Origin: a virus
Strand: one strand, 5' to 3'
IMG/VR virus record: IMGVR_UViG_3300021961_000715
Span: 1-22,041 of that record
DNA: 22,041 nt
Under the pieces are notes generated by a model. That model saw nothing but the letters and a program-made list of their open reading frames with translations. It made no database searches and was not told where the DNA came from. The stretch's first letter is position 1, and each line of letters begins with the position of its first letter. Position numbers and translations under genes: made by a program. Shown one piece after another: positions 2,887 to 5,494 of the stretch.

Positions 2887-4017
2887 ATGTCAGAACCCAC
2901 CACGATTCGAGACGCTTTGGAAGCGGCTGTGCCCGACGAGACTGTTGAAGCATCGACGCCAGAACCAGTCGCAGAGCCGGAAGTTCAATCAAGCTTTGAG
3001 CTTGAGCCCACGTCCGCAGCAGACCCTGCGCCGGAGGTAGCCAAAAGCGAGAAGCGCGACGAGAGAGGGCGCTTTAAGCCAAAGGACACCCCCAAGCCGG
3101 AGGTGGCGCCCGAGGCGGTCCAAGCGCCAACCGAGCCCGCGCAAGGCATCCAACCTGGCCCGAAAGCCGAGCCGAAGGCAACCCCGCAAGAGCGAGCGCC
3201 AGCGTCATGGCGTCCAGACGTGCGAGAGCATTGGCAAAACCTGCCACCCGAGGTTCGAGCCGAGGTCGCCCGCCGCGAGCGCGAAATGCAAAGCACGCTG
3301 CAGGAGACGGCCGAGGCGCGCAAGTTCAGCGAGCAGCTCAACAAAGTTATCGCGCCGTACGAAATGTTTATTCGCGCCGAAAACAGCAACCCGCTGCAGG
3401 CGATTGATAATTTGATGGCGACTGCCGCCAAGTTGCGCACCGGCACCGCGCCCGAGCTTGCGCAGCTTGTAGCTGGAATGGTCAAGCAATTCGGCGTCGG
3501 CCGTTTCGGCCAAGGCTTTATCGAGTCGCTCGATTCAGCGCTCGCCGGCGAGGTACCTCGCGTCGATCCGGTTCAGAACCAGGTGCAGCAGGTGCTGCAG
3601 CAGCAGCTCGCGCCAGTTCAGCAATTTATGTCGCAGTTTCAGCAGGCGCAGGCTGCACAGCAGCAACGAATGCAGGAGGAGGCGGTCGGCGAGGTGCAAG
3701 CCTTTATCGAGCGCGCCGAGTTTGGCGAGGACGTGCGAGAGGAGATGGCCGACATTCTCGAAGTCGCTCAGCGCCGCGGGCGCGACTTATCGCTGCAGGA
3801 CGCGTACAAGCAGGCGTGTCTGGTCAACCCACGCGTCCGAAGCGTGCTGGAGCAGCGCGCCAAAACGCGCGGTGCGCAACAACTGACGGGCGCTGCACAA
3901 AAGGCTAGGGCGGCCGCTGTTAGTGTCTCAGGCGCGCCGACGCTCGCCGGGCCGAAGAGCGACGCGGCCGACGTGCGATCTGCGATTGAGGCAGCTATTG
4001 CGGCAAACTCAAGGTAA
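2887..4017 (+). CDS. Scaffolding protein (376 aa)
   Basis: The scaffold directs procapsid assembly and leaves before or during DNA packaging. The identification rests on position directly before the major capsid gene and on composition. Residues 1-110 are acidic and Pro/Glu/Ala-rich, probably disordered, with 'KRDERGRFKPK' in the middle. Residues about 110-160 contain 'PASWRPDVREHWQNLPPEVRAE', a pattern common in scaffold-like proteins of this phage group. Residues about 230-265 are a Gln-rich predicted coiled coil. The C-terminus is helical and moderately basic, which is typical of the capsid-binding end. No protease motif was seen, so this is not an obvious protease-scaffold fusion. The ribosome site is weak (GCAGG), and the gene is probably translated together with the upstream 113-aa gene. 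Confidence 0.8.
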   Translation: MSEPTTIRDALEAAVPDETVEASTPEPVAEPEVQSSFELEPTSAADPAPEVAKSEKRDERGRFKPKDTPKPEVAPEAVQAPTEPAQGIQPGPKAEPKATPQERAPASWRPDVREHWQNLPPEVRAEVARREREMQSTLQETAEARKFSEQLNKVIAPYEMFIRAENSNPLQAIDNLMATAAKLRTGTAPELAQLVAGMVKQFGVGRFGQGFIESLDSALAGEVPRVDPVQNQVQQVLQQQLAPVQQFMSQFQQAQAAQQQRMQEEAVGEVQAFIERAEFGEDVREEMADILEVAQRRGRDLSLQDAYKQACLVNPRVRSVLEQRAKTRGAQQLTGAAQKARAAAVSVSGAPTLAGPKSDAADVRSAIEAAIAANSR

Positions 4018-4214
4018 TGGTATAAACGCATCGGGGATGGTGTACCCGTAAGGAGACACCACCCCGGTGTGCCAAAGCACCGACAGCCACCGAAGCTCTT
4101 AGGAGCGCCTCTGGCGCCCACCTAGACATACCGGACTGATAAAGGTTCGCGTAGGCCACTGAAACCTGGTGGGGGTTTACCCCCGTTCATTTTTCATGTG
4201 GGAGTTTCATCACA
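4018..4214 (+). promoter_or_regulatory. Structured 5' leader of the major capsid gene
   Basis: These 197 bases encode no convincing protein but can form a series of stable hairpins. The strongest pairs CGGGG (4032-4036) with CCCCG (4062-4066), then, after a single bulged A at 4037, TGGTGT (4038-4043) with ACACCA (4056-4061). Its 12-base loop carries AAGGAG (4050-4055), a perfect Shine-Dalgarno sequence. Further hairpins are CGGTG/CACCG (4065-4069 with 4078-4082), sharing 4065-4066 with the first stem, GCTC/GAGC (4095-4098 with 4103-4106) and the competing GCGCC/GGCGC (4105-4109 with 4113-4117). The leader ends with GGGGG/CCCCC (4171-4184) followed by a T-rich run. The capsid gene's own GGAG (4201-4204) follows. 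Such leaders could stabilise mRNA, place a processing site or tune capsid yield; no known RNA family was recognised. Confidence 0.5.
4171..4195 (+). terminator. Terminator-like hairpin just before the capsid gene
   Basis: GGGGG (4171-4175), a TTTA loop and CCCCC (4180-4184) are followed by GTTCATTTTTC. The stem is short and the T run is interrupted, so it may be a partial terminator, an RNase barrier or a stabilising hairpin at the 5' end of the capsid mRNA. CCCACC at 4117-4122 can pair with GGTGGG at 4168-4173 and would disrupt the hairpin. Confidence 0.35.
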
Positions 4215-5192
4215 ATGGCTTTTGCAAATACGTCCGTTACGGACATCATTGCGACTACGATTCAGTCGCGCACGCGTCAGATCGCTGACAACGTCACCAA
4301 GAACAATGCTCTGCTTGCCAAGCTGAACCAGCGCGGCAACGTGAAGCCGTTCGGCGGTGGCTCGTCGATCATGCAGGAATTGTCGTTCGCTGAGAACGGC
4401 AACGCCGGCTTCTACTCGGGTTACGACTTGTTGCCGGTTGCGGCGCAGGACGTGATCTCGGCTGCCGAGTTCAGCATCAAGCAGCTCGCTTGCCCGGTCG
4501 TGATCTCGGGCCTTGAGCAGTTGCAGAACAGCGGCCGCGAGGCGTTCATCGACCTCCTTGAGGCTCGCATCAACGTCGCCGAGTCAACGATGGCGAACAA
4601 GCTCGCCCAGTCTGTCTACTCGGACGGCACCGGCTCGGGTGGTAAGGAAGTCGTCGGCCTCAACGCCGCCGTGCCTTCCGATCCGACCACCGGCACCTAC
4701 GGTGGTATCGACCGTGCGACGTGGACGTTCTGGCGCTCCAAGCTGTACGACTTCTCGACCGCTGCCGTTACGCCGGGCGCGAACACGATCCAGGCTGGCC
4801 TCAACACGCTGTGGTCGTCGCTCGTTCGCGGCGCTGATCGACCGGACTTGATCGTCCTCGATAACACCTACTGGAGCTACTACATGAGCTCCTTGCAGGC
4901 TCAGCAGCGCTTCACCGACCCGGCCACCGGCTCGCTCGGCTTCCCGACCGTGAAATTCATGGACGCGGACGTTGTGCTCGACGGCGGCATCGGCGGCTAC
5001 TGCCCGGCAAACACTGGCTTCATGCTCAACACGAAGTACCTGTTCATGCGGCCGCATCGCGACCGGAACATGGTTTCTTTGAGCCCGAATCGTCGCTACG
5101 CCATTAACCAGGATGCGGAAGTTCAGATCCTGGCATGGGCCGGCGCGATGACCTCTTCGGGTGCTCAGTTCCAGGGCCGTATCCAGAACTAA
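4215..5192 (+). CDS. Major capsid protein (325 aa)
   Basis: This protein forms the icosahedral shell. Position after the scaffold, length near 325 residues, and the sequence itself support this. It starts 'MAFANTSVTDIIATTIQSR' and has a helical 'LEQLQNSGREAFIDLLEARI' segment (the spine-helix position) and a C-terminal part 'INQDAEVQILAWAGAMTSSG', all familiar from major capsid proteins of HK97 fold in short-tailed phages. Codon use is strongly biased to C/G-ending codons compared with neighbours, as expected for the most highly expressed gene. GGAG at 4201-4204 is the ribosome site, ten bases from the ATG. The gene is isolated: a 197-base structured leader lies before it and a double-hairpin terminator region after it, so its output can be set apart from that of other head genes. 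Confidence 0.92.
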   Translation: MAFANTSVTDIIATTIQSRTRQIADNVTKNNALLAKLNQRGNVKPFGGGSSIMQELSFAENGNAGFYSGYDLLPVAAQDVISAAEFSIKQLACPVVISGLEQLQNSGREAFIDLLEARINVAESTMANKLAQSVYSDGTGSGGKEVVGLNAAVPSDPTTGTYGGIDRATWTFWRSKLYDFSTAAVTPGANTIQAGLNTLWSSLVRGADRPDLIVLDNTYWSYYMSSLQAQQRFTDPATGSLGFPTVKFMDADVVLDGGIGGYCPANTGFMLNTKYLFMRPHRDRNMVSLSPNRRYAINQDAEVQILAWAGAMTSSGAQFQGRIQN

Positions 5193-5206: not shown

Positions 5207-5261
5207 GGGGGTCACCCTTGCCTTACCGGGTGGGGTGACCCCTCACTCGGTAGGGCTTTTT
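5207..5261 (+). terminator. Nested alternative hairpins and terminator after the capsid gene
   Basis: Two mutually exclusive structures overlap. One pairs GGGGTCACCC (5208-5217) with GGGTGACCCC (5233-5242), a perfect 10-bp stem. The other pairs CCTTACCG (5221-5228) with CGGTAGGG (5248-5255, one G-T pair), encloses a small GGGG/CCCC hairpin, and is followed directly by CTTTTT (5256-5261), a classical intrinsic terminator. The first stem would block the second. The Shine-Dalgarno GGAG of the next gene starts three bases after the T run. Confidence 0.7.
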
Positions 5262-5274
5262 GGGGAGATAAAAG

Positions 5275-5463
5275 ATGGCAGCAACCTATAGCTCAGCAGT
5301 GAATGCCGACAATCCCGCGGTCGTTGACACCAACGCCTCGCAGGCTACCGGCGCTGCCGTTGAAGGCATCGGACTTCGCGGCGCAGACGGCGTTAGTTTG
5401 AGTGGTTCGCGAATCGGCGGAGCGCCGGGCGCGGATTTCAAGTACGAAACAAACGTCGCCTAA
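5275..5463 (+). CDS. Small virion-region protein (62 aa), unknown
   Basis: The start is well supported by GGGGAG seven bases upstream. The protein is rich in Ala, Gly, Val and Ser, with no membrane segment, no cysteine and few charges; a middle part 'GIGLRGADGVSLSGSRIGG' looks like beta strands and turns. It lies alone between the terminator region after the capsid gene and the strong terminator that begins seven bases after its stop codon, so its mRNA probably comes from read-through of the capsid transcript. Position and composition would fit a head decoration or minor capsid protein, but I do not recognise the family, so this role is inferred. Confidence 0.65.
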   Translation: MAATYSSAVNADNPAVVDTNASQATGAAVEGIGLRGADGVSLSGSRIGGAPGADFKYETNVA

Positions 5464-5468
5464 TAACC

Positions 5469-5494
5469 AAGCGGGGCTTCGGCCCCGCTTTTCT
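5469..5494 (+). terminator. Strong intrinsic terminator with UUCG tetraloop
   Basis: AAGCGGGGC (5469-5477) pairs perfectly with GCCCCGCTT (5482-5490) around a TTCG loop, followed by TTCTTT. This is a textbook rho-independent terminator ending the capsid/62-aa unit. Confidence 0.9.

Follow-up and report, generated by a model that had tools for sequence, protein, structure and literature searches.

A conserved structured RNA leader of a phage capsid gene, predicted to hide the ribosome site, shares its locus with an HNH endonuclease gene

The leader and its capsid locus

The DNA analysed here (the window) is a stretch of 22,041 nucleotides from the IMG/VR virus record IMGVR_UViG_3300021961_000715, and all features described lie on its plus strand. 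A scaffold-like gene (2887-4017) and the major capsid protein gene (4215-5192; PHROG 9953 major head protein, E 1.8e-110; NCBIfam NF033394) enclose a leader at 4018-4214, which we assign to class 1 of the capsid leader RNAs. The leader folds better than all of its dinucleotide shuffles (z -4.2, 0 of 200), and the class-1 covariance model matches it at 4067-4211 (E 6.6e-31, with the window sequence itself in the model). A -35 element (TTGCGG, 3998-4003) lies in the end of the scaffold gene, 17 nt from a -10 element (TATAAA, 4021-4026) that has a TG upstream (TGgTATAAA) and is conserved in at least 99 relatives. The Ile codon that provides the TTG is ATT in 34 of 36 relatives, compared with 78 of 234 for the remaining Ile codons of that gene end. 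From these elements we infer a conserved promoter overlapping the leader's 5' end, with a transcript start near 4033. A terminator-like hairpin of 16 bp with 10 GC pairs, followed by TTTTT, lies 3' of the capsid gene (5220-5261), so the capsid gene may be its own transcription unit. This hairpin and a second one (5469-5490) flank an ORF of 62 aa (about 5275-5463), suggesting several short transcription units 3' of the capsid gene.

A search with the capsid identified 80 related loci, in most of which one conserved motif fills the 170-210 nt 5' of the capsid gene. Three independent DNA-pattern scans of viral contigs yielded at least 99 distinct bona fide leader copies, each with the same capsid family downstream and with the capsid start codon 120-140 nt past CAGCCACCG. 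Motif-like matches without a capsid gene downstream lack the rest of the motif or are cut by a contig end. Since every bona fide copy precedes the same capsid family, the leader is linked in cis to the capsid gene, and its position and gene context are conserved in the manner of a cis-regulatory element. Among distant capsid relatives in prophages, none carries the motif, and the gap before the capsid gene is mostly between a few and about 90 bases (136 in one). The isolate with the nearest capsid, Stenotrophomonas phage BUCT555, carries a consensus promoter (TTGACA-17-TAGAAT) at the same place and a different leader. The Myxococcus phages Mx9 (L202) and Mx8 (L203) have related capsids and leaders of 146-163 nt that are of other sequence and in appearance rich in inverted repeats. 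An Rfam 15 search, which a first-pass annotation of this DNA had called for, gave no match in the window leader, with no family above the gathering threshold (E up to 5), and likewise nothing for class 1 as a whole or for the class-2 and HNH loci described below.

Helices conserved among relatives

Alignment of the relatives gives a consensus order of promoter, P1, GTGTGCC-AAGCACC-CAGCCACCG, anti-SD strand, AGGA-P4-CCACC, P5/P6, AGGC, P7 around P8, SD, and ATG. P1 (4027-4071) is a 5'-terminal hairpin with covarying pairs, and despite its hypervariable sequence this segment forms a single hairpin in all 72 distinct sequences (mean z -6.2). It is followed by an invariant block (GTGTGCC-AAAGCACC-CAGCCACCG, 4067-4092), the first half of which is like the KVCxKHP codons at the start of an HNH ORF found in other relatives, and, past the anti-SD strand, by an invariant AGGA (4101-4104). 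The P4 hairpin (4105-4117; 4105-4109 with 4113-4117), with an invariant CCACC after it, has two-sided compensatory changes in five of five pairs and 98.3% of cells paired. The region 4121-4155 contains P5 (CCTA/TAGG) and P6 (CGGAC at 4132-4136 with GTTCG at 4145-4149), the latter with G-U/G-C exchanges. G-U pairs are common on the sense strand (in P6, 45 of 52), which favours RNA over DNA as the folding molecule. The AGG of 4101-4104 can alternatively pair with CCT at 4121-4123, with two-sided changes from A-U to G-C in two sequences; this pairing and P5 use common bases, and there is some support for each. The window has CCTAGAC at 4121-4125, whereas CCTACGAC is found in nearly all relatives, so that one C of the usual CCTACG is gone from P5, a loss that is either natural or a sequencing error.

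P7 and P8 occupy 4156-4201. P7 (4156-4159 with 4198-4201, extended by 4160-4164 with 4192-4196) encloses P8 (4168-4187) and occurs in two covarying versions across the relatives, CCACA/TGTGG and CATCTGA/TCAGATG, and all six pairs of P8 covary with two-sided changes in each. Compensatory changes are thus seen in P1, P4, P7, and P8, and overall 89.8% of helix cells are paired, compared with 33-42% when the partners are slid as a control. About 33 leader positions are invariant and 25 nearly so, many of them in loops. A home-made phylogeny-aware G-test on an unrefined MAFFT alignment, which has little power, gave E 0.2 for its best pairs (P8), and a possible pairing of GTGTGCC with GGCGCAT has zero covariation among relatives. 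A lack of compensatory changes had been named in the first-pass annotation as grounds for refutation, and the outcome favours structure. Judged by folding, by the uniform P1 hairpin, and by the several covarying helices, the leader is a real structured RNA, beyond chance, as the first-pass annotation had proposed.

The coordinates given in that annotation are all correct in the window, and its individual functional readings fared differently once relatives were compared. The P1 stem is present as described (around 4027-4043 with 4056-4071), with AAGGAG (4050-4055) in its 12-base loop, but this supposed ribosome site occurs in the P1 segment of only one of 74 distinct sequences, that of the window. 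The GTG at 4067 does open a frame of 11 codons (stop at 4100-4102), yet the frame varies from 9 to 52 codons among relatives and is not conserved as a leader peptide. CCCACC (4117-4122) and GGTGGG (4168-4173) lie where they were reported, and their suggested pairing is formed in 53.8% of cells with zero covariation. The terminator-like stem before the capsid gene corresponds to P8, whose T run is absent in many relatives; it is one of five such matches in the region, where shuffles give 4.4. A conserved stem with a T run, as expected of a transcription attenuator or intrinsic terminator, was not found among the relatives.

A covarying helix predicted to close the capsid ribosome site

The capsid SD (GGGAG, 4200-4204) overlaps a strand (GAGTTTC, 4202-4208) that pairs with the anti-SD strand GAAGCTC (4092-4098), and P7 stacks on this helix. 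The anti-SD partner is formed by the variable segment flanked by CAGCCACCG and AGGA. Scored over 74 distinct leaders, the best helix that these strands can form has a mean of 15.1, compared with 12.5 for permuted partners (z 10.1, 0 of 200), and the same test on six other 24-nt windows gave z between -2.4 and +1.0. With one sequence per distinct strand, z is still 7.5 (controls up to +1.1). The strands change together in sets, which include GAAGCTC/GAGTTTC, AAATGCTCC/GGAGCATTT, ATGATCTT/AGGATCAT, TGACTCC/GGAGTCA, AATGCTCCAT/ATGGAGTATT, and GATGAGC/GTTCATC.

Partition-function folding predicts a closed capsid SD in nearly all class-1 leaders. The predicted unpaired fraction is 0.09, compared with 0.27 when the upstream sequence is shuffled (p 6e-9), and opening the SD is predicted to cost 9.5 kcal/mol on average; these thermodynamic predictions leave pseudoknots and co-transcriptional folding out of account. 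By the covarying pairing of the SD with a conserved upstream anti-SD strand, the leader is of the SD-sequestering kind. The covarying anti-SD helix and the low predicted SD accessibility indicate that it most likely represses capsid translation until opened. The proposal in the first-pass annotation of a cis-regulatory RNA that adjusts capsid output is therefore well supported, through a route more direct than the one it had envisaged: a covarying long-range helix that sequesters the capsid SD itself. When the SD was forced open in folding, the anti-SD strand found no consistent alternative partner. We also considered a release of the SD that depends on the transcription start site, in the manner of I-TevI, and rejected it, as read-through and promoter transcripts fold to the same closed SD.

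An HNH endonuclease gene and other alleles at the place of the leader

Thirteen relative loci (L008, L015, L016, L018, L043, and eight further) have an HNH ORF of about 194 aa exactly at the place of the leader (equivalent to 4018-4214 of the window), with the same promoter region in front of it and the capsid start immediately downstream. The ORF contains the invariant motif NMTVDHIVPL..GLHVE.NLQLL..NARKGNR, which places it in the HNH nuclease family, and matches PHROG 1035 endonuclease VII (E 2.9e-10); there was no match in Pfam or NCBIfam. The AlphaFold model of the protein is weak (pLDDT 70.6, pTM 0.37), and a fold search with it gave no informative match. On the capsid tree, the eight HNH rows require eight changes, six of them forced by well-supported branches. 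Each HNH row falls among class-1 rows, one of them beside an almost identical capsid that has the leader (L299/L237). This scattered distribution makes the ORF a candidate homing endonuclease gene. One 71-kb contig (IMGVR_UViG_3300047554_000338; L302, L044) has both alleles, an HNH one close to one end and a class-1 leader around its middle, and perhaps consists of two genomes joined in assembly.

The HNH ORF conceals more RNA structure than expected at both of its ends. Measured against synonymous-codon shuffles, the mean z is -3.1 for the last 190 nt (20 homologues elsewhere: -0.31; p 2.8e-5) and -2.6 for the first 120 nt (20 homologues elsewhere: -0.35; p 7.4e-5). At 25 loci we found a second class of leader, which is homologous to the 3' end of the HNH ORF as far as the capsid start (E about 1e-13, compared with a best of 0.55 for shuffles). 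When class 2 and the HNH genes are taken together, their P7 covaries (10 of 5000 permutations reached as high a value). Class-2 leaders (255-336 nt; L369, L395, L398, L411, L421, L443, and relatives) have the arrangement GCCATC-hairpin-GAACATGA...TCATGGAG and form at least four subgroups. A third kind of leader, in L048 and L052, has TCCCACTGGGCGAA, which is near the TPTWAN codons of the HNH gene (TCCCACTTGGGCGAA). The class-1 covariance model finds none of the class-2, HNH, BUCT555, Mx8, or Mx9 sequences.

Beginning at base 1, roughly the first 45 nt of class-1 leaders can be aligned with the starts of three HNH genes (E 0.007, 0.05, and 0.07), and the alignment takes in the conserved KVCxKHP codons (GTGTGC..AAGCACC). 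Homology over the whole length was considered and dropped, the alignment being restricted to the 5' part, and an HMM of the class-1 core, with the promoter region trimmed, had no match to HNH. The class-1 leader is probably in part derived from an HNH gene. It is one of at least three allelic states of the locus, the others being the HNH ORF and the class-2 leader, and a viral gene switch and a selfish gene seem to replace one another there.

The alleles differ in how they are predicted to present the capsid SD. Its accessibility relative to shuffles is higher in class 2 (0.48 versus 0.34) and in the HNH alleles (0.53 versus 0.36), so sequestration would not be required by all phages with this capsid, and class 1 would represent a distinct regulatory solution.

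Proposed mechanism and alternative explanations

We consider it likely that the leader RNA regulates capsid translation in cis, with the SD being buried by the covarying anti-SD helix together with P7 and opened by a putative trigger. Transcription would begin at the promoter overlapping the 5' end of the leader, and the transcript would fold into a 5'-terminal hairpin and a compact core. The long-range helix of 4092-4098 with 4202-4208, demonstrated by covariation, would close the core, and this helix and P7 would bury the SD, with low capsid translation as the predicted result. The helix may then be opened by a late signal that acts on the invariant core, whether a small molecule, a protein, or something else.

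A possible, though rather doubtful, alternative is a structural 5' leader without a switch, in which P1 shields the capsid mRNA at its 5' end and the translation rate is fixed by the remainder, with nothing being sensed. P1 behaves as a stabiliser would, always a hairpin at the predicted 5' end and hypervariable in sequence, and the lack of an alternative partner for the anti-SD strand fits as well; the roughly 33 positions without variation and the 25 with almost none, many of which lie in loops, and the conserved helix that closes the SD nevertheless exceed what a stabiliser needs. It is improbable that the fold works as DNA, for example as a cruciform recognised by the HNH enzyme or as a recombination site. 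The locus is a point of exchange with a nuclease allele and covariation alone does not separate DNA from RNA hairpins, but the common sense-strand G-U pairs of P6 and the targeting of the ribosome site itself by the anti-SD helix argue for RNA. Even harder to credit is a catalytic RNA, self-cleaving or intron-like, tied to the HNH element: its ORF overlapping structured RNA resembles intron-encoded endonucleases such as I-TevI in td (PMC2988022) and the leader has invariant loops, yet Rfam gave no ribozyme or intron match, there is no interrupted gene to splice, and the class-1 helices close on the SD.

Very unlikely, too, is that the leader is a functionless remnant of a homing endonuclease gene with structure left over from that gene. 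Class-2 leaders are homologous to the HNH 3' end, the class-1 5' end aligns with the HNH start, and the locus is often exchanged; the compensatory changes in P4, P7, P8, and the anti-SD helix, like the invariant positions, however indicate ongoing selection. The earlier reading as an attenuator with a leader peptide, or as a ribosome site in the first loop, is hardly tenable, for the AAGGAG, the GTG, and the hairpin with a T run exist in the window while the AAGGAG, the GTG frame, and the T run are contradicted by the relatives, in which none is conserved.

Beyond the translational regulator that we prefer, a wider scenario can be put forward tentatively. A homing endonuclease gene may have been converted repeatedly into an RNA that regulates the adjoining essential gene: RNA elements at the ORF ends would be needed by the capsid mRNA and so would have evolved within coding sequence, loss of the ORF would leave a stand-alone translational switch, and HNH alleles would re-invade leader alleles. 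Class 1 would then be a new sensor class for capsid timing in a tailed phage.

Relation to known systems

The leader works like SD-sequestering leaders while lying outside any Rfam family. It has, as translational riboswitches and ribosomal-protein leaders have, a conserved core and a helix that conceals the downstream gene's SD; it differs from them in that its gene is a phage capsid gene and in having no Rfam match. The T4-type homing endonucleases I-TevI, mobE, and segB are controlled by RNA hairpins (PMC2988022), and in these, as in the HNH allele, RNA structure lies at the beginning of the endonuclease gene and is overlapped by a promoter. Here, in contrast, related structure persists without the ORF and would control the downstream capsid gene, and, unlike in the start-site control of T4 I-TevI (PMC2988022), folding from the predicted start leaves the capsid SD closed. 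The stable hairpin that abuts the ribosome site of seg43(25) in Aeromonas phage 25 (PMC2988022) is comparable to P7 in class 2 and the HNH alleles, although it precedes the endonuclease gene, whereas P7 is found where the endonuclease ORF ends, ahead of the capsid gene.

The HNH allele also resembles the hidden HNH insertions of the ShiLan type (PMC11855218), in which an HNH ORF of about 195 aa runs from near the 5' end of the element to a stop at its 3' end, and which likewise belong to no known intron type. Those insertions lie out of frame within a methylase gene with no conservation of RNA structure reported, whereas the allele described here is intergenic. Homing endonuclease genes (HEGs) have been described beside essential genes, including capsid genes, at recombination boundaries in phages (PMC10448857), which is similar to the arrangement here; the available part of that account describes no leader RNA allele, unlike the capsid locus. 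In the open-access literature, we found no capsid leader RNA of the SD-hiding kind, no HEG-derived regulatory RNA, and no alternation of an RNA with an endonuclease gene that hides related structure, and no capsid motif is mentioned in two surveys of structured RNAs.

A conserved RNA that would hide the SD and so govern synthesis of the major capsid protein was not found described in the families and open-access literature searched, and through the leader the timing with which a tailed phage makes its most abundant protein becomes directly testable. The exchange between this RNA and a homing endonuclease ORF whose coding ends hide RNA structure hints that selfish genes and viral regulatory RNAs may arise from one another, a route for which the open-access literature offered no clear precedent.
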